From NCBI GenBank assembly GCA_025765595.1, contig JAIVFH010000021.1, positions 124,001-188,000 on the forward strand: 64,000 bases of DNA, written 5' to 3'. The notes beneath the pieces are model-generated. The model saw only the letters and a list, made by a program, of their open reading frames with translations. It was not told where the DNA came from and did no database searches. Shown here in pieces: positions 38,376-49,976 of this stretch. The translations under genes were made by a program, and so were the position numbers. Position 1 is the first letter of the stretch. Every line of letters starts with the position of its first letter. This stretch comes from Obelidium mucronatum (Eukaryota > Chytridiomycota > Chytridiomycetes > Chytridiales > Chytriomycetaceae).

Positions 38376-41300
38376 TTACTGCGCGGCCTTGGCAAATCTC
38401 GACAAAACTTCCCAGGTGACAGTGTCAGACGGAGAAAACTCAAAGTCATCTGGAATTGTCACTGTAGAAACCTGCCATGGCATCCATGGGATACGGTAAA
38501 AGTTTGAGAGCTCAGCAGTGTGCTCAATGGTAGGGGCTTGGCCCTGCCCTTGAGCACCAAACTCTTCAAAAATGACAGTCTTGCTATAGTTTTGAGCCTT
38601 TCCCAAGACAGCAGGGATCAGTGGCGCAACATCAGAGAAGGCGTGAATCGCAACAACATCAATAGCCTTGCATTGGAAGTTTTGGTCAATCATAGCGTCA
38701 GTTGGGTATTGGGCACCACCCGTGGAAATCAGAATCCCATTCTGGGACAGCTGGTACTTGAGTTTTGTCGCGCGTTCGCACCACCAATTTGGATTGGGCA
38801 TTTTGAGCGTTGATTGTCCTTCGTTTTGAATTTCAAACGCGTAAATGGATTCAGAGATTTGAGCCCAAGGTCTCCAGCGCATGTACTTGTTTGAGTGGTT
38901 GACAATATGGTCCAAGCGCTTGTCAAAAAACTTCTTGGCTGTTGGGTCAGTGTAGAAGGTTCCCGCACCACCGGCGGATGTACAAGCCTTCTTGTCCTTG
39001 TCATACTTGCAAAACGCTTGGCAGTAAGCATCACAGGTGCCCCAAGTGCTATCAAGGTTCCAACGATCATGGAGTGCAATAATCAGCTTAATGCCATACT
39101 CTGGTACGAGGGACATGAGTTTATCGATCGCCAAAAGCGCGGTGTCGTCATATTTTCCGAGAGTTGTCATTTCCAAGTCAGGAGTAGCTGAAGCGTTGGT
39201 TCCCTTGCCACCTGCTCCGAATTGAGTAACAAAGATACGAACTTTTGTGACACCAGCTGCTTGCAGAGAAGACAAAAGGTAGCGTTGTTCCTTTTCGGGC
39301 AGATTGGCCATAAAGTAGCTGTTGACACCCGCCCACATGGGAGAGTCGTCACACTCTGTAAATCAAATTTAGCCGACTAGTGTTATATATTTTACGAACG
39401 CCAGAACTACGGTGGTTAGTATGAACCGAGCAAAAATATTATTTTTAAAAAACATTTTTGATTTTTTGAAGCACCCCCTCGGGTCTTTTTCGTCCACCTA
39501 CCAACAAAAGCAACCTGCTCTCGCCACCAGAGCAGGCACCAGTGCTTGTTATGCACAGCTGGTGTATGTGTCTTGAACCAATGCTAGATTGAACTTGCAG
39601 GGGTTTCGATGGCTCTGGGTATGTCTCGGAATCGATGCTGGACACGCAGCATGACGGGCGGGTTGTCTCACCGTCGCTGCTGGCACCAGCGCGTGCTAAG
39701 CACAGCTGGTGCTTAAGCCTTGAATCGATTCTGGAAATTTGGTCAAGTTTCGAAAGTTCTGGATTTGGAATCGATGCGGGGCACACAGCGCGACGGGCGG
39801 GTTGTCTCACCGTCGCTGCTGGCACCAGCGCATGCTAAGCACAGCTGGTGCTTAAGTCTTGAATCGATTCTGGAATTTTTAACTTGCTGGAGTTTTGAAA
39901 GTTCTGGAATTGACTTGTAATCGATACGGGGCAAACAGCGCGACGGGCGGGTTGTCTCAAGCGCTGGCACCAGCGCGTGCTAATCACAGCTGGTGCTTGA
40001 GCCTTGAATCGATTCTGGAATTTCGGTTATGTTTCGAAAGTTCTGGACGTGACTTGGAATCGATGCGGGGCAAACAGCGCGACGGGCGGGTTGTCTCACC
40101 GTCGCTGCTGGCACCAGCGCATGCTAATCACAGCTGGTGCTTAAGTCTTGAATCGATTCTGGAATTTTTAACTTGCTGGAGTTTCGAAAGTTCTGGAATT
40201 GACTTGGAATCGATACGGGGCACACAGCGCGAAGGGCGGGTTGTCTCACCGTCGCTGCTGGCTCCAGCGCGTGCTAAGCACAGCTGGTGCTTGAGCCTTG
40301 AATCGATTCTAGCATTGCCTACACTGTTAAAGTTGTTTGTCTGCGCATTACCCCGAAAGGAGGCCTCAAACTATACTGCCAGTATGCAAGACTAGTGTAT
40401 AGTTTTTTGCTGATGCAAACAGGTATAAAAGGCGTGCAAGGAATAAAAACCGAAAAACAAATGTTCTCATACCAAGCAGAAAGCTGCTACAACCCAAAGG
40501 CGGTAGTCAACGATGAGAGAGGTGTGATAATTTGGTTTTGGCAGGAAGTTCTCTGTTGACAGTTGAAGTGTTTTGCAGAGTCCCAGGCTATCTGGAAACC
40601 GCCTATGTCTGGAGCTTTTGGAACAATATGCACTCCAACAACAACCAGAAATGTGGGAGTTCAAACGGAATTCAATGTAACTGTTCTTGGTGATCGGTAT
40701 TTGATACTAGATCTAGACTCTGTACCAGGTTGGATTTCTCTTTTTTCGGCTAGGGATGTCCAACACTAACATATCCACACACAGGGCATCCAGGTCTCAG
40801 TTTGTATATTAACAACAAAGTTCCTGAGCAAGACACCACTTTGGTGGGTGAAAAAACTGTTGTCAACCAGGTGGACAAACTCGACCAACGTATTGATGGA
40901 AATTGCGTCGGAGACAATGACGCTGCAACGGCTGAAAATACTGTGTACAAAAGGACCAAGTCAAGTGTTCATGTGGCTCCAGCATCTCTACCTCAAACTC
41001 ACAATGTTGAACCAGGCGTTGAAGTTTTGGCCAAGTCAGCCAGTAGGGTTGGATGCACCGGCGACGACAAAATGGATGGAGAGGACGCAGGGGATTTCCT
41101 TTCGTTCATGGCTTCGAAGTCCCGTAGTGTTGCGGCATTTCGAAATTGGGAAACGACCGAAAATTTGCATTCAACCACTCCCCTGTTCTCGTCCTTCACT
41201 TTTGGTACCTCTGGCAAGGCCAATGTTCATCCAAAAACAGGGGGACTTGAAAAGCAATCGGTGACGCATGAAGTGTTTGCGGTGGTTGCTGATACGGCCA

Positions 41301-44300
41301 GGCCGTCGAAAAGAATCCGAGTCAAGAACCCATTGCCGCCGTTTTTTCCTGACAAACCATTACCATCACTTGGGATCGGATCAGATCCGTCGCTTGAAGT
41401 TGTTCCAGTTAACCAATTGAGGTGTAGCACCTGCAATACTCCAACAAAAGCGACTCACTGGTTTTTGGGGTTTGTGCCAGTGTGTTTTGCCCACTATAAA
41501 GGTGAGAATTTTATTTGTTGGAATATATATTACTATCTGATACAATTTTACTTACACAACCTCTTCTTAATAGAGCATAACTGGGAGCCGACCAGTTCGA
41601 ATGATGCAGACCTTTCTGTTGTGGCCCAGGCTTTGCCATCGTCGGAAGGCTGGACAGAAGACATGTTCTTTAAGACCAAGTTCGACAGTTTTTACCACTT
41701 TATTGGCTGCCACGGGGAATTTGCTATGTTGGAATTTGATATTCTGCTACTGGAAGCTTTGAACCAACCTGTTCCCAATGGCTCATATGTGGGCATGACA
41801 CATATCAATCAAGTCAAAAATTTGTTGTTGTACCCCGTTATATATGAAAGCGGCGCTGCTACTCGGTACATCTCAGCCGACCTTGCCAAGGAATTGGAAT
41901 CTTTTTGTCTAGACATAGAAGAAGAAAATCTGGAGTACTACAAGTTGGTATACACCACCCAACAGATGATGGGAGTTGTTGGGTTGGAATGTTGGAAAAA
42001 ACTGTTGCAAAGAATATGCGATAAAACAGTTGTCAAGAAACTGACTGACCAAATTACATCCAACTACTCTCACTTTGACTTGGATTCCCGTCTGCTGGTA
42101 TTACAAGAACATTGCTTGAAACAGGCATTGGAGTACTACAACTGTGACGACACACGGACATTGATGAACGCCCGCAAGATTTCCTTGCTCGAATGTGGGA
42201 AAAATCTTCCAGTATTCAACAGGTTGTACTCCAATGCTGTTTTGAAAGCCCTCTCCGACAAGCGTGTACGAATAGGATACTTGGACCACTCTGATCTTTG
42301 TTCCCTTCTTCACGTGAATGATCCACTGGTCCATGCTCATGGGGACATTTCCGGGGAAGTTATTGACGGTGTTGCCTCTCTTCTTGAAACCAGACGTCCC
42401 CTGTTTCGATACGTTCCAACTGGTTTCACTGATGGTTACAAGAAAGGGGATGGTTCTTTTTTCAAACGTGAAGCTGTGCGTCTGAGCATGAGTTTGCTCC
42501 CCAAAGACAACAAAGGGATTGCTATTCCATGTTCCTTCTTCACTCCTGTCCATATCGACATCCCCACCCGGAGGTCTTACGGAGGCCATTGGTTTTCAGT
42601 TTACTATCATCGAATCAATCATGCCATATACTACGTCAATTCTGCCCCTACTTATCTTGAAAAGGAAGTGCTCACTGCAGTGAGATATGTATCTTGTGTG
42701 GTTGCAAAAGCCTTTCAAACCACGCGCCCAGGAATATTTTTTCTAGAAAGTGCCACCCAAACAAACAGCCACGATTGTGGTCTCTTTGTTCTTTGGCATT
42801 TAAGGCAGTTGAGGCAATCTGTGGATGGGTGGATCAACGACTGGAACAATTGCCGAAGCAAAGTTCCGTTATCGAACACCTTGAGATCAAGGGAGCTGGA
42901 ATTTCTTGTTAGTAGCAAAGTTGAATTGGACCAAATGGCGGGACGAGGAAAAGGACTTGGATTTTTTAGGAAGTGTGTTTCCCAAAAAAACAAGTAATAA
43001 AGCAGTTCCAAAATTAGAAAAATTAGAATAATTGAATTCCAAATCTAGAAAGCATTGTTTCAATGTCAGCGACTGAAGAATGCGGGCTTTGCAGCCGATT
43101 CTTTGCTGTGAAGGACATGTTCATGGACGAAGAATCGGGGGTTTCCGTGTGCCAACCTTGTCATGACAAACTCCTGATTGAAGAAGATTGGGAATACTGC
43201 CTCCTTTGTGGGAAACAATGGCCGTCCTCTCAAATGGCACGAAATGAAGCGGATCCTTCAGAGTTTTGTTGTGCTCAATGTAACTCTGAGGAAGTGGAGA
43301 AGGCAACATGTGGCATATGTGGGGACGAACATCTAAAAGCTGAACTGCTTAAAGATACAGAGAGTTCCCTTCTGTGTTGTGAAGGCTGCAATGGAAGTGA
43401 GATTCAAGGCAAGTCTTTTCTCTGAGTAATAATTACCTTACATTTTACGAAGCAGAGTATATCTGCTGCTTTTGCGGGAATTCTGTTTCTAGTCCAGCCC
43501 CAATGGAATCGACAGTAATATGCGACCCATGCAAGAAATCTCCTCAATGTTATGGGTGTGGGGAAGTTTTTCCACTTGATGAACTTTTTGAAGTTTTGGT
43601 GCAAGAAGTAGCTGAAGATATCCCAGATGGCGATCCATTTCAAACTGCAGATGACCCTTTCGAGGACACTATCCGATTTGTGTGTAATGCTTGCAAAATT
43701 GAATGTCAGAGTTTGGACAATGATGCCGCTTTCAACAGCCACATCACCAAGCTACATTTGAGGCCACGGGAACAGGAAAAAACCCCAGATAGAGCATGTT
43801 GCATCCAAAACCCAAGTCACTCATTTATTGACCCAGTTGATGCTACGAGTACACCATGTTGCTTGTCCTGCCATGTGAAATTAATAGTGTTGCACTATTT
43901 TTGGGCAGGAGACCCGCACACAAAAATCAGGGAGAAGCTTCTTGAAGCTGGACATGTTTTTACGTAATCTTATTTTTAATATTTAAAATGGTTTTGGAGT
44001 GCCTCTAACACACTTCTTTTTGATAGGAAGCGGACGTTTCAGAAGTACATGGAAACACATAAATTACGCCGTCGAGGACACACTTTGGAGGAGATAGCTG
44101 AAATGGAGGAAAGCGCAAGAAGAGCTATTTTAACATACCGTCAAAACGTTGGGGAGCGCATGGGATACAGGCTAATGGCGCAGCATTTACATCTGGTGCA
44201 CAACATACCGATGCCCCGGTAAAATCTTCCCAAGTGGGGTTAAGCTGTACTAACTTCCTTAACATGTAGCGATAGCGTTCGTAAACTTTTGAGGGCCATG

Positions 44301-47300
44301 GAGGCATCCTTGGTTGACTCTCGAAAGTACCGAAAGCTTAAAAGAAACAATTTTGTGGGTAATGGCCCTTTTGAGACATATGCATACGACCAACACGACA
44401 AATTCAGTAAGGTCAAAATGGATGCAAATTTAATTATTTTTTTATTCATACCCGCCTTGTTTCAGGAAGATATGGTGTCTATGTCCATGGCGCTATTGAT
44501 TGCTTCAGCAGATTCCTTGTTAATCTCTGGGCACACAAAACAAATCGACAGGGCTCACTTATTGCCATTAAATATTTGGAGGCATGTCAGAAGTTTTCTC
44601 GTGAGATGCCTTCTTGTTGTTGGGTTTGATTTGGAGCTCAACTCAAACACATTCAGGAGTGTGGGACACTACTATTTCAGATAGAGGGACAGAAAACATA
44701 CTGCCAGGAAAAATTCAGTGCAAAATTGTTGGGGATCTGATTGAAGCATACTTGGAACTGCATCCAGAAGACAAAACTGTATTGGACCGAGATCCAGAAA
44801 AAAGCCACAGAACAGTATACGACTCAAGACTCAACCAAAAAATAGAATGTTTTTGGTCACATTTTTTACGCCAAATAGGATTTGACTTGTTGAATCGCCT
44901 GGAGGAGGGGGAACGGGGCATGCACTATGACGTTAAAGACATGGTTCACCGGTATGGCAGGCCACCACCCCAAAGTAAATCCTGATCTGCATTTTTACAG
45001 AACGGTTTTCCAGTATTTGGCGATCCCCTACTTGAATGGCATCTTTGATGAGTATCGTAGAAAGTTCAACTTGAGAGACAAGAGACTTCAGAGGAACCGG
45101 GTGCTGCCCAGTGGAGCTGGCAGCAAAGCAGTTAATTTAATGCATGATCCTCATCTTTACCAGGCGGAGAAGATGGGGATTCAAGTTGATCCAAAGGTTC
45201 TTCAACCTATTATTGATGGCCTACAAAGCGACAAGCACAGCCAACTCTTCCCAGACGAAATTAAACTGTACTTAATTGAGGCCCATCAAGCATGTGGAAA
45301 GTCAAAAGTAACCTCCATTGAGTCCATTTGGCCAGTGATGAAGCAAATGGTGACATACATCAACAACCAAGTCGGTTGGGCGGCCCTCATCCACAGATAC
45401 CAGGGAGCAACTTCACAGGACCTTGAAGAAGATGATCCCATAAAATGGTAGTCCCCAAATGATGCCGGGCATTCTTCAATTTCATAAACATTTTAAATAA
45501 ATATTGACCCTGGGCACACAGCCCGACAATTGATTCTGGAATTTTTAACTCTGGAATTGACTTGGAATCGATTCGGGGCAAACAGCGCGACGGGCGGGTT
45601 TTCTCACCATCGCTGCTGGCACCAGCGCGTGCTAAGCACGGCTGGTGCTTTAGTCTTGAATCGATTTTGGAATTTTTAACTTGCTGGAGTTTCGAAAGTT
45701 CTGGAATTGACTTGGAATCGATACGGGGCAAACAGCGCGACGGGCGGGTTTTCTCACCATCGCTGCTGGCACCAGCGCGTGCTAATCACAGCTGGTGCTT
45801 GAGCCTTGAATCGATTCTGGAATTTCGGTTATGTTTCGAAAGTTCTGGAATTGACTTGGAATCGATACGGGGCAAACAGCGCGACGGGCGGGTTTTCTCA
45901 CCATCGCTGCTGGCACCAGCGCGTGCTAAGCACAGCTGGTGCTTTAGTCTTGAATCGATTTTGGAATTTTTAACTTGCTGGAGTTTCGAAAGTTCTGGAA
46001 TTGACTTGGAATCGATGCGGGGCAAACAGCGCGACGGGCGGGTTGTCTCACCGTCGCTGCTGGCACCAGCGCGTGCTAAGCACGGCTGGTGCTTTAGTCT
46101 TGAATCGATTTTGGAATTTTTAACTTGCTGGAGTTTCGAAAGTTCTGGAATTGACTTGGAATCGATACGGGGCAAACAGCGCGACGGGCGGGTTTTCTCA
46201 CCATCGCTGCTGGCACCAGCGCGTGCTAAGCACAGCTGGTGCTTTAGTCTTGAATCGATTTTGGAATTTTTAACTTGCTGGAGTTTCGAAAGTTCTGGAA
46301 TTGACTTGGAATCGATGCGGGGCAAACAGCGCGACGGGCGGGTTGTCTCACCGTCGCTGCTGGCACCAGCGCGTGCTAATCACAGCTGGTGCTTAAGTCT
46401 TGAATCGATTTTGGAATTTTTAACTCTGGAACTGACTTGGAATCGATACGGCGGGTTGTCTCACCGTCGCTGCTGGCTCCAGCGGGTGCTGAGCACAACT
46501 GGTTTTGATTCTGAAAAACCTGTGGCCATTTGATATGCAAAGATGATATGCAAAGACAAATCTTCAACGTGTGAGGGCTGATAATTGGAAACAATTTATT
46601 TTTCTGAAAGCACATAGTCAGAATCAGAATCGGAACACACAATCCTCTTTCGTTTTTCGCCTATATTTGCAGTATGAGCCCTTCCTTTTACGATTTCCTC
46701 CTGGTCTTCCTCGTCGTCCTCATTGTCGAGGAACACCATGAGTTGGGTATCCACTTCGTTTTTCTCCACAACTCCTTCTTCCAGTCCATTTGCGTCCCCC
46801 ACTATCCCAGAGTTATATTCAGCCCACTCAGTCAATGACATTTGAGTGATGTTCTCCAACATGTCACTAACAATCGGCAAGCAGGAATCGTCGTATAAAT
46901 CAACCAATTGAGCTGCTCGCATATACCACATCAACTGCTGTGTAATCTCGTCGTCGTCAAGATAATTTATCATTGAAACGCCTAGAGCAACAAACTTAGT
47001 TCATAAATAGTTAAAACCTGACGATGCAATACCATCATATAAAACATTCCTGGCCAGCTCAACAAATCGCCTTGAGTGACTGTATCCGTCCAGAAAAGCA
47101 ACAGCGGCACTACTTCGAATCTGACCCTCTGAGGTGATGTTATTGTCAGGGTCCGCGTATATTTGGTCGAATGCTTTGTAGTCACAGGTTGTCGGGTCGA
47201 AATTCTGGGGCAAACGCGCAGGAGGGGAACATAACTGGCAACCGCAAAAGAGAACACCATGCATCTGGGCGTTCAGAGATGTTTGAATATAACTGGGCTT

Positions 47301-49976
47301 AGGAGTCAGGCCAGGATAGCAGGAACAGTCTGGAATACTTGGGGAATAGCAATCGTTACCCGCTCCGGCATGCTGTGCAAGGCCAAGAAACCCAACTTCG
47401 GACCCAGGAATAAATAGCGTGGGACTCCACTTGTCAGGGTCACGGTCCTTCAACGGTGAGTAGTTTTTTGTTGCGTAGATGACATCGGCTTCTTTCAGTG
47501 GAAGGCCATGACCGGTTTGACGAACAATCCCATGTCTCTCCCCAACAGACGGGGCTCTGATAAAAAACTGTTGAACGCAACAAATTATTTGGCTGTGCAA
47601 TTAACTGACCTCGGCTCGTACAAATCCAAAAAATTGTTTCGTTGTCTGAAAATAGTTGTCTTTGTCGTACGCCCTATGGAAAGCAGAGTAGAGTAAACTC
47701 CCATCACATGGGCGTCATAGTGGTCCATTTGCTGGTAAGTCAGTCCTGGTATGCTTAAAAGCAAAGCGATACCGGAGATTTTTATGTCCTCCTCTAACAC
47801 TGTCGCCCCGAAAAATTCCTTCATGTAGCGAACAAAGACGCTCGTTCTGTTCTGCTGCATTTTCTTCAACGATCTGTCCAAAACAGAAAGACGGTCCTTC
47901 GGCACATTGTTCGTTTCAGCCCAGTCAAATATATGCTTCCAACCTTCCAAGTAGAACTGGAAAGCATTTCCCGAAATACGCGAAACACCTTCTGGTAGTT
48001 TTGGTAACTGTCCTGACTGAAACTTTCGCCCAGCTTTGTGGTATTCTGTAAGCCAATATGTGGCCGATTTGTGAGGCGGCCAAAAAACAGACAGGGCCAT
48101 GGCCTCCAGCACTTCAGCCACTACTTTTGTTTCACAACGGTCAAGTGGATGGAAAATATGGCAGACGCCATGTGACCTGAAGCGCGCCAGGAGAGCCTCC
48201 ATGTCAGAGTAATCGGGGAGCGCTGATCAATTGTTATTAGTTTAATTGAAATTGATTCGTGACCACTATTTACTTGGAAAAGGGGGTATCGATTTGGCTG
48301 TAAACTCCAGTGCCTTGTGTATCATATCGGTGGTCACAGCCAGGGCATCAGATGGAATCTTGCCATCCAGTAGTGGCCAAATCTCCAAGTCAAGCACGGA
48401 CTTGGAGTCTATGGTTGAAATGCGCCAGCTGTACTTTCGACGGCCGCCGCCATGTCGCACCGAGTGCTTGTGCCTGAGGACAATATCCAGATTGTCAAGG
48501 AAAACCATGCGGCTGCTCTCAATCCAATCATGTGGCAGCTTTGCCTTGACGGACAGAACAAAAAACGGCGTTGGTCGGGGATAGATGTGGTCATGAACGT
48601 TGGATGGTTCCAATATAAACTCAGACACCAGCAACGGCCTGGTTTCAGGCAAGACAGGATGCATCCGCTGTTCTGGAGTATGTTGCACAGGACGAAGCTG
48701 CTCAGGGGCAGTCCCTGTTGCTTTCCTGCTCTGCCTGTTCTTGCTTTTGCGTTTGGGTGGCATTTTAAACTATTTTAAGGGACAGAAACAGTCTCAAAAC
48801 TCCAGCAAGTTAAAAATTCCAGAATCGATTCAAGGCTCAAGCACCAGCTGTGATTAGCACGCGCTGGTGCCAGCAACGACGGTGAGACAACCCGCCCGTC
48901 GCGCTGTTTGCCCCGTATCGATTCCAAGTCAATTCCAGAACTTTCGAAACATAACCGAAATTCCAGAATCGATTCAAGACTAAAGCACCAGCTGTGCTTA
49001 GCACGCGCTGGTGCCAGCAGCGACGGTGAGACAACCCGCCCGTCACGCTGTGTGCCCCGCATCGATTCCAAGCCAATTCCAGAACTTTTGAAACTTGACC
49101 AAATTTCCAGAATCGATTCAAGGCTCAAGCACCAGCTGTGCTTAGCACGCGCTGGAGCCAGCAGCGACGGTGAGACAACCCGCCCGTCGCGCCGTATGCC
49201 CCGTATCGATTCCAAGCAACAACTTGCATTCAAGACACAGACACCAGCTGTGCATAACAAGCACTGGTGCCTGCTCTGGTGGCGAGAGCAGGTTGCTTTT
49301 GTTGGTAGGTGGACGAAAAAGACCCGAGGGGGTGCTTCAAAAAATCAAAAATGTTTTTTAAAAATAATATTTTTGCTCGGTTCATACTAACCACCGTACA
49401 GAACCGACCTGCGGATTTACGACATTTGTGAGGGCCAGTCAAATCTTTTTTGGCACGACAGCATTTCGAACCAGAGGTTGAACAAGTATCCTTCATTTCA
49501 CACACAGAACCGTTTGGAAGAGGAGTATGGGTTGGCTTGGGGATCGAAGTGGTGGTTGGATCAAGGCAGTCCGACCCAGGACCCGTCAAACGACAGGTGT
49601 ATTTTTTCGGGATAGCATCCACTTTGGCAATGCAGCAAATAAAGTCTGATGAGGCGCATTTTGGTCCCAGCGGATTGCAGTCGGCCCAATTGGCGATGCC
49701 AGTCGGGGCTGGAAGTGTCCCTGTCGGAGTCGGGCCTGTCTTACAGTCTGCTCAAGAAGAGTAAATCGAAGCTTCAACAGCCTAAAAAGAAAAAAGGCAC
49801 CAACCGTAGGTTGGGCGACAAGTGGTTTTCGTTTCATCGCTCGGCGCAACGCAGCAGACAAAGCTGCTTGAGGCGCAAGTGTCGCCTGGAAAACAGCTCT
49901 GCCAGTCACCAATTACACCCGCTGTGGTCAGCGAGGCAAAGAGGACAAGGCTCAGTTTTCCGATGAGGGAGTGCAT
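38376..49976 (-). CDS. Secreted GH5-type endo-beta-mannanase-like enzyme, gene interrupted by a transposon in an intron
   Basis: The 5' part is at 49976-49409: signal peptide MHSLIGKLSLVLFASLTTAG, then two tandem Cys-rich modules (GDWQSCFPGDTCASSSFVCC and GIANWADCNPLGPKCASSDF) joined by a Thr/Pro linker, and a third Cys cluster (SVCEMKDTCSTSGSKCC). The 3' part is at 39355-38376, the catalytic domain: MWAGVNSYFMANLP, RIFVTQFGAGG, IALHDRWNLDSTWG, acid/base Glu in FEIQNEGQ, nucleophile Glu in IFEEFGAQG. This order fits GH5 subfamily 7 beta-mannanases. The halves join in frame as KSA-E-CDDSPMW if an intron runs from 49408 to 39356. The transposon lies wholly inside that intron. One other intron at about 49747-49803. 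Expression would need an approximately 10-kb intron to be spliced. Confidence 0.85.
39402..39407. repeat. Target-site duplication, left copy (CAGAAC)
   Basis: Directly abuts the TACGGTGG end of the left inverted repeat; the same six bases follow the right end. Confidence 0.9.
39408..39577 (+). repeat. Left terminal inverted repeat of the transposon
   Basis: 170 bp beginning TACGGTGGTTAGTATGAACC and ending CTTGAA. It is identical to the reverse complement of 49229-49398 except for A against C near 39566. It includes one copy of the palindromic CACCAG...CTGGTG motif also found in the subterminal repeats. Confidence 0.92.
39600..40320 (+). repeat. Left subterminal array, five copies of a ~150-bp unit
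   Basis: Each unit contains GACGGGCGGGTTGTCTCA, an imperfect palindrome GCACCAGCGCGTGCTAAGCA followed by CAGCTGGTGC, and TTGAATCGATTCTGGAA. Palindromes are centred near 39695, 39835, 39980, 40125 and 40275. Units differ by small gaps and substitutions. Confidence 0.88.
40605..42997 (+). CDS. Transposon gene 1: Ulp1/SENP-like cysteine protease protein
   Basis: Exons join MSGAFGTICTPTTTRN...LDSVP to the 731-codon frame starting at about 40787, with one more intron at about 41502-41572. Residues about 215-240 hold a small zinc-ribbon-like segment (CSTCNTPTKATHW). The C-terminal third is a C48-type protease: catalytic His in SYGGHWFSVYY, a YYVNSAP segment where Ulp1 enzymes usually have Asp (here Asn), oxyanion Gln in ATQTNSHDCGLFVLW and catalytic Cys in the same motif. 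C48 enzymes cut SUMO or similar tags; proteases of this type are known passengers in several eukaryotic DNA-transposon groups. The start is the first ATG in the exon; a further 5' exon cannot be excluded. Confidence 0.85.
43063..45451 (+). CDS. Transposon gene 2: zinc-ribbon array fused to integrase-type DDE transposase
   Basis: The N-terminal 300 or so residues contain about ten CxxC pairs (CGLCSRFF, CQPCHDK, CLLCGKQW, CGICGDEH, CCFCGN, CDPCKK, CYGCGEVF, CNACKIEC) and one HxxKLH, probably DNA-binding zinc ribbons. A helical part follows (RKRTFQKYMETHKLRRRGHT, RLMAQHLHLVHNIPMPR), then an integrase (rve) core: Asp in YAYDQHDKF at about 44388, GVYVHGAIDCFSRFLVNLWA, Asp in TTISDRGTEN at about 44680, and the NQKIECFWSHF block carrying the final acidic residue at about 44850. 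A C-terminal domain ends DLEEDDPIKW. Introns at about 43408-43455, 43966-44027, 44220-44269, 44407-44464 and 44627-44658, and one near 44950-45000. Confidence 0.85.
45525..46510 (+). repeat. Internal array, seven copies of the same ~150-bp unit
   Basis: Same unit and orientation as the left array, lying between the DDE gene and the minus-strand unknown gene. Spacing alternates around 144-150 bp. Some copies have GGTTTTCTCACCATCGC in place of GGTTGTCTCACCGTCGC, so two sub-variants alternate. Because the unit is near a multiple of three, long spurious open frames cross it on both strands. Confidence 0.88.
46596..48763 (-). CDS. Transposon gene 3: unrecognised multi-exon protein
   Basis: Starts MPPKRKSKNRQSRK, a basic and probably nuclear-targeting N-terminus, then SEFILEPSNVHDHIYPRPTP and LEIWPLLDGKIPSDALAVTT. 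The next exon (48202-47600) has MEALLARFRSHGVCHIFHPL and is largely helical. A third exon (about 47565-47020) carries a Cys/Pro cluster (CYSPSIPDCSCYPG, then CGCQLCSPPARLPQ). The last exon ends in an acidic tail and a basic patch (DEEDQEEIV, GEKRKRIVCSDSDSDY). No enzyme motif recognised. It faces the other two genes and is flanked by the internal and right repeat arrays. Likely an accessory factor for transposition or its control, by position only. Confidence 0.7.
48790..49228 (-). repeat. Right subterminal array, three copies in inverted orientation
   Basis: The same unit as at the left end, inverted, with palindromes near 48855, 49000 and 49145; a fourth lies in the inverted repeat itself. 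The array is shorter than at the left end. Confidence 0.88.
49229..49398 (-). repeat. Right terminal inverted repeat of the transposon
   Basis: 170-bp inverted partner of 39408-39577, with one mismatch. Confidence 0.92.
49399..49404. repeat. Target-site duplication, right copy (CAGAAC)
   Basis: Directly follows the CCACCGTA end of the right inverted repeat and matches 39402-39407. Confidence 0.9.

Follow-up and report, generated by a model that had tools for sequence, protein, structure and literature searches.

Architecture of the element

The window, a stretch of 64,000 nucleotides on contig C21 of the Obelidium mucronatum genome (C-numbers denote contigs of this genome throughout), contains a mobile element of 9,991 bp at positions 39408–49398, both boundaries of which were located from its terminal inverted repeats (TIRs) and the flanking target-site duplication (TSD). 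The host belongs to the Chytridiomycota according to NCBI taxonomy. Three predicted genes, spliced and with unbroken frames, lie between the ends together with arrays of repeated units.

39402–39407, unstranded: left target-site duplication, CAGAAC
39408–39577, plus strand: left TIR, 170 bp, starting TACGGTGGTTAGTATG
39589–40318, plus strand: left subterminal array, 5 units at a spacing of about 139–150 bp
40605–42997, plus strand: gene 1, Ulp1/C48-like cysteine protease, 754 aa; exons 40605–40728, 40785–41501, 41574–42997
43063–45451, plus strand: gene 2, zinc-ribbon DDE transposase, 687 aa; 7 exons, 43063–43408, 43456–43963, 44027–44218, 44270–44406, 44466–44600, 44657–44951, 45001–45451
45525–46503, plus strand: middle array, 6 units and a partial unit
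46596–48763, minus strand: gene 3, orphan protein, 675 aa; exons 48763–48274, 48222–47606, 47567–47033, 46981–46596
48814–49245, minus strand: right subterminal array, 3 units of 144 bp
49229–49398, minus strand: right TIR, 170 bp
49399–49404, unstranded: right target-site duplication, CAGAAC

The exon structures are predicted gene models; as a control of the splicing method, the transposase predicted for a second element, on C240, equals the public protein P0005 exactly. The two TIR arms differ by one mismatch, at TIR position 159, and on remeasurement the values in a preliminary description of this DNA (170-bp repeats with one mismatch, a 6-bp CAGAAC duplication and a length of 9,991 bp) were obtained again. 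The arrays comprise 14 units of about 139–150 bp with a palindromic core, 11 on the plus strand and 3 on the minus strand; each unit of the left array carries the palindrome GGCACCAGC...GCTGGTGC, and a single diverged palindrome of the array type is found toward the inner end of the left TIR. Joining the flanks of the element reconstitutes an intron, predicted at 56 bp, in a minus-strand host gene, with the CAGAAC target site starting 4 bp into the intron, and the exon after this intron gives a GH5 match slightly under the Pfam cut-off. The interrupted host gene (window positions 38379–39407 and 49405–49751) combines a Cys-rich stretch with a GH5-like domain.

Gene 1 matches the Peptidase_C48 profile (PF02902) at E = 1.4e-4 and 22.2 bits, little over the cut-off of 20.7, and contains the motifs HW...NSAP...QTNxxDCG. 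The active site of Ulp1/C48 proteases is composed of His, Asp, Gln and Cys. The His, Gln and Cys are present in the proteases of both the window element and the C240 element, and an Asn (within NSAP) occupies the position expected for the catalytic Asp. A PDB sequence search with gene 1 returned no match. The C48-type protease gene of the earlier description is retained here as a Ulp1-like gene, with a profile score just over the cut-off and an Asn at the Asp site.

The transposase and its superfamily

The Cys-rich N-terminal half of the gene 2 product contains 11 CxxC pairs (about ten had been counted before) and is followed by an integrase-type core, in which the catalytic residues are D389, D448 and E503 by alignment. 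The predicted first intron of the gene (43409–43455) has GC-AG ends. The protein matches the integrase core PF24764 at E = 2e-11, with rve far weaker (0.011), and among NCBIfam profiles it matches IS481 (5.5e-5) and IS3 (2.3e-4). PF24764 is the best Pfam profile, above its cut-off, for the window, C240 and Rhizoclosmatium proteins, the last being the one relative outside Obelidium in a protein search (36% identity, same fungal family).

Published IS3EU elements have TA..TA ends and usually a 6-bp TSD, in the consulted part of PMC10045372, and the TET+ IS3EU elements of rust fungi have TAYGG..CCRTA ends, in that of PMC12730594. The TACGG..CCGTA ends and 6-bp TSD of the window element match these features, and together with PF24764 they agree with the preliminary suggestion, drawn from the length of the duplication, of a link to IS3EU. 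We compared cores in an unrooted tree of 12 sequences and 162 columns with ultrafast bootstrap, IS3 and LTR integrases included. In this small tree, support of 91 separates the IS3 and LTR integrases from every PF24764 core, and support of 97 sets the cores of the window, C240 and Rhizoclosmatium proteins apart from all others; C240 and Rhizoclosmatium group at 65, and the node of the remaining PF24764 cores receives 39. Membership of the window transposon in IS3EU is therefore likely but not proven: PF24764 is the best profile, but the chytrid trio stands apart and the node that joins the remaining PF24764 cores has low support. Because the protein search gave a single relative outside Obelidium, the assignment rests on ends, TSD and profiles, with IS3EU families compared by their published features only.

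The same tree bears on an improbable alternative, in which the element represents a separate, unnamed IS481/IS3-like superfamily confined to chytrids, whose IS3EU-like ends reflect shared mechanism only. The isolation of the three cores at 97 would fit such a lineage, as would the 11 CxxC pairs preceding the core and the narrow distribution of the transposase, whose profile matches only three proteins in the protein database, belonging to two genera within a single chytrid family; strongly scoring PF24764 genes on C2, C50, C57, C131 and C262 are just 26–28% identical. Against it, PF24764 exceeds its cut-off in all three proteins, PF24764 genes on C22 and C367 are intermediate at 41–43%, and the TAYGG..CCRTA ends, the 6-bp TSD and the layout of TET/JBP and alpha-kinase genes in related copies (see below) are those of published IS3EU. 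We consider a Ginger-type element, another integrase-like transposase associated with a Ulp1 protease, scarcely credible and reject it, since the consulted part of PMC2836005 describes Ginger1 as sharing the integrase-like DDE transposase, the Ulp1 domain and TIRs of about 40–270 bp but as having a 4-bp CCGG/CCGT TSD, TGTNR ends and a Ulp1 domain fused C-terminally to the transposase, whereas here the TSD is 6 bp and varies in sequence among copies, the ends are TACGG, the protease is a separate gene and rve scores far under PF24764.

PF24764 genes that score more strongly occur elsewhere in the genome, on C101, C182, C313, C45, C15 (at 376741), C124, C57, C2, C50 and C262; these are possibly its ordinary IS3EU families.

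Copies in the genome

The search for other copies of the inverted repeats that had been proposed as a check found the TIR at 11 places in the genome; identity is 99–100% in 8 of these, among which are the two ends of the window element itself; C13 holds a diverged match. The terminal 16-mer TACGGTGGTTAGTATG occurs exactly 31 times, versus 0 in a reversed control. Sixteen of these occurrences make 8 pairs spanning 1.1–15.3 kb. The 15 unpaired ones comprise those on C81 (inexact partner), C441 and C631 (both running off their contigs) and C41, which has no partner at up to 3 mismatches within 15 kb, and 11 that were left out. All nine two-ended elements examined carry TACGG..CCGTA termini at both ends, and eight have an exact 6-bp TSD, the duplication of C125 agreeing in 5 of 6 bases. 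The exact duplications are listed here, the last four belonging to short elements.

C21 (window copy): CAGAAC
C15: TAATAG
C81: ATTTCG
C240: CAAGGG
C7: CTGAAG
C8: CCTTCG
C161: CAATAG
C505: AGATAT

Two-ended copies of the window family are those on C21, C15 (15,292 bp) and C81 (12,077 bp, damaged); copies on C441 and C631 are interrupted by contig ends. The C15 copy is 97.4–97.5% identical to the window copy over 6,822 and 3,432 bp, and C441, at 99.86% over 1,421 bp, is its nearest relative. No larger duplicated block accounts for the repeats, as C15 and C81 lie elsewhere with TSDs of their own, and the three genes recur together in C15 and also in C81, where gene 3 is truncated. Gene 3 of C15 is 4 bases short of the window reading, and its public protein diverges at the C-terminus. 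Across the three genes, window and C15 differ by 13 synonymous and 14 nonsynonymous changes, counts too small for a selection test; relative to the damaged C81 copy the changes are likewise few (6 synonymous and 19 nonsynonymous in gene 1, 6 and 10 in gene 2). Five short elements (C7, C8, C125, C161 and C505) measure 1,075–1,279 bp, too short for a transposase gene; C505 resembles the window family and the other four resemble the C240 family.

A module missing from the window copy

The C15, C81 and C441 copies contain, past gene 3 and before the right end, about 3.9 kb that is absent from the window copy, and these are all three of the sister copies in which the right part is retained. The module carries gene 4 on the plus strand and gene 5 on the minus strand. 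Gene 5 of C15 encodes an alpha-kinase domain (PF02816, E = 6.3e-14). Gene 4 has no match in Pfam or NCBIfam and no meaningful match in the PDB; its assignment comes from profile comparison. When a first profile of 2 sequences was compared with 6 TET/JBP sequences of Obelidium, P was 0.08 and the HxD was in register. Enlarged by 5 relatives, the profile reached a score of 32.9 with the Obelidium TET set (P = 2.8e-4, HHalign probability 41%), with HxDxxN and a distal His in register; none of 100 column shuffles reached this score (maximum 26.3), and the reversed profile gave 23.5. The enlarged profile comprises C15, C280 and 5 of 8 other loci (L072, L074, L075, L077 and L079), and the TET set uses 6 of 9 genome matches. 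All eight gene-4-family loci read contain an HLD motif. Gene 4 is a probable, divergent TET/JBP-like gene. Its relatives genome-wide amount to 56 matches, many of them open frames near 171 aa at about 27% identity, and a TET/JBP-like open frame also lies on the window's own contig, outside the window (C21, 265684–266130).

The point at which the module is missing falls within an array unit.

48813–48950, unstranded: array unit with the deletion junction (3,870 bp lost relative to C15)

Within this one shared unit, the window copy switches from the flank preceding the module to the flank following it, which are 3,870 bp apart in C15. The window copy is an internally deleted version of an element of about 15 kb with alpha-kinase and probable TET/JBP-like genes. 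Loss of the module between direct repeats is the simpler reading, because C441 is nearest to the window copy yet retains the module, and the dioxygenase-like and kinase genes would have been lost by recombination between two array units. The reverse course, a three-gene ancestral form whose sister copies gained the module, appears very unlikely. The array repeats that flank the module could equally mark an insertion, but the module is found in every sister copy with the region, the 99.86% identical C441 included, and both a kinase and a TET/JBP gene follow the transposase in the C240 family, which has diverged to 45% transposase identity; we therefore rejected a gain.

The element on C240 (884–11737; 10,854 bp; TSD CAAGGG) shares its terminal 16 bp with the window element. 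Its genes are ordered as follows.

Ulp1-like, plus strand
Transposase, plus strand
TET/JBP, plus strand
Alpha-kinase, minus strand

The Ulp1-like piece has no Pfam match and is 36% identical to gene 1 over the matched stretch, and the transposase shares 290 of 638 aligned residues with gene 2. The TET/JBP protein matches PF12851 (1.1e-8) and Naegleria Tet (5cg8, E = 0.0019), and the kinase matches PF02816 (1.4e-11) and is 40% identical to that of C15. A genome search with gene 3 gave no match at this element. The TET/JBP gene of C240 thus stands between the transposase gene and an alpha-kinase gene of opposite orientation, a layout that the window copy lacks; C15 has it with gene 3 added, its dioxygenase recognized by profile comparison only. 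The C240 element is the published TET+ IS3EU layout of rust fungi plus a protease gene.

The ends, the 6-bp duplications, the multiple copies, the predicted gene content and the deletion-type junction are all read from the DNA itself. We read the window element, with a probability of roughly 0.83, as a young cut-and-paste DNA transposon of the chytrid O. mucronatum that has undergone an internal deletion and very probably belongs to the IS3EU superfamily. The preliminary picture, a young DNA transposon in which a Ulp1-like protease gene accompanies one for a zinc-ribbon/DDE transposase, is upheld; its description as complete applies to the ends but not to the gene set, as C15, C81 and C441 hold the extra 3.9-kb module.

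Relation to described transposons and proposed mechanism

In rust fungi, TET+ IS3EU elements carry a TET/JBP gene flanked by the transposase gene on one side and by an alpha-kinase gene in opposite orientation on the other, and a further TET+ family occurs in Tuber, according to the consulted part of Kojima 2025 (PMC12730594). The Obelidium elements resemble those of rusts in the 6-bp TSD, the TAYGG..CCRTA ends and the combination of TET/JBP with an opposite alpha-kinase (in C240, and in C15, where gene 3 is added and the dioxygenase is identified by profile only). They differ from the rust and Tuber elements as described there in their chytrid host, in encoding a Ulp1-like protease by a gene of its own, in the zinc ribbons arrayed along the transposase and in long TIRs accompanied by subterminal arrays, and the window copy itself is without kinase and dioxygenase. 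The words 'chytrid', 'Ulp1' and 'protease' are absent from the main text of that paper.

Styx is an element of Zymoseptoria, an ascomycete. We also compared the window element with the Ulp1-bearing Mutator elements, whose transposase superfamily differs from its own. Those elements are similar in placing a SUMO-protease-like domain in a DNA transposon, in the consulted part of PMC2836005. Styx is similar in its IS3EU-like DDE transposase and has four coding sequences, two of them lineage-specific, in the consulted part of PMC10853768; that study set the TSD length at 6 in its search, and its main text does not contain 'Ulp1'. In the open-licence PMC literature we found no paper joining IS3EU with Ulp1, IS3EU with chytrids, or Obelidium mucronatum with a transposon, and alpha-kinase and IS3EU appear together only in Kojima 2025 (PMC12730594). 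As far as open-licence papers, some consulted in part, indicate, the suggestion that the element may be undescribed stands as regards the chytrid lineage and the pairing with a protease but not as regards the combination of IS3EU, TET/JBP and alpha-kinase, which is published for rusts (PMC12730594).

Judging from the domains identified, the DDE core of the transposase would excise the element and join it to a target cut with a 6-bp stagger, and the zinc ribbons would bind the TIRs and perhaps also the subterminal palindrome arrays. The Ulp1-like protease would strip SUMO from the transposase or from host chromatin proteins. In full copies, the TET/JBP-type dioxygenase would oxidize methylcytosine and the alpha-kinase would phosphorylate some target, and the three enzymes together would help the element to evade silencing. 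The window copy has neither dioxygenase nor kinase gene and so would depend on sister copies for both. A more far-reaching proposal, which we regard as rather unlikely when taken as a whole, is that this is a chytrid IS3EU lineage with a counter-silencing kit of SUMO protease, kinase and DNA-oxidizing enzyme, and that gene 3 founds a new chromatin- or DNA-acting family that also travels in mobile-looking loci beside a cytosine methyltransferase gene and a gene for a histone H3 tail mimic.

That a chytrid carries the rust-type IS3EU set together with a SUMO-type protease gene suggests that the alliance is of great age or that the genes were captured more than once. The young copies offer material for testing the role of each accessory gene, the window copy, near-identical to its sisters but without kinase and dioxygenase, serving as a natural deletion.

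The orphan gene 3 and its paralogs

Gene 3, which the preliminary description could not place, remained without a family after profile searches, and Pfam gave nothing at E-values as high as 1; its matches in two protein searches, each scoring about 8,000 candidates, come from Obelidium only. A genome search with it gave 44 matched stretches, on C21, C15, C81 and C441 and on ten other contigs (C109, C274, C23, C149, C118, C67, C194, C476, C25 and C36). In C109 and C23 the gene adjoins arrays about 76–80% identical to those of the window, with no TACGG-type end at up to 3 mismatches (10 kb in C109, 8 kb in C23); at the C149 locus no window-type array was found. The carriers on C109, C274 and C23 share a common left boundary, and a fourth locus, on C20 and diverged (88%), begins at the same base; no matching right end was found for C109 and C23. 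Gene 3 is an accessory gene that is also present in loci without TACGG-type ends.

Paralogs covering the relevant part conserve an HxD motif and a later His. A gene-3 profile, built from 4 of the 5 rows of paralog alignment A3, aligned with TET/JBP over 21 columns that leave the HxD outside (P = 0.0087), and its score of 25.6 marginally exceeded the maximum of 60 shuffles (24.7, none reaching it); the same profile against gene 4 gave nothing. An AlphaFold2 model from two sequences has a pLDDT of 31. The reading of the gene 3 product as a 2OG dioxygenase, of the TET/JBP type or another, was set aside: Pfam, NCBIfam (one chance match), PDB and protein searches named no family, the marginal profile match left HxD unaligned, and the pLDDT is 31.

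Other genes share loci with gene-3 paralogs. On C149 (L053, 7506–6913), C118 (L083) and C67 (L084), a gene starting MARTKQNARKSTGGKAPRK lies in the same locus as a paralog; this start, which we take to be nearly the histone H3 tail, is identical in all three of the loci looked at, and the residue that follows differs in C67. The open frame after this gene on C149 appears Ulp1-like by eye and has no Pfam C48 match. On C476 (L060, 327–1355), a cytosine-5 DNA methyltransferase-like gene lies upstream of the gene-3 paralog and matches PF00145 at 7.2e-7 and 7.5e-4 for its two pieces.
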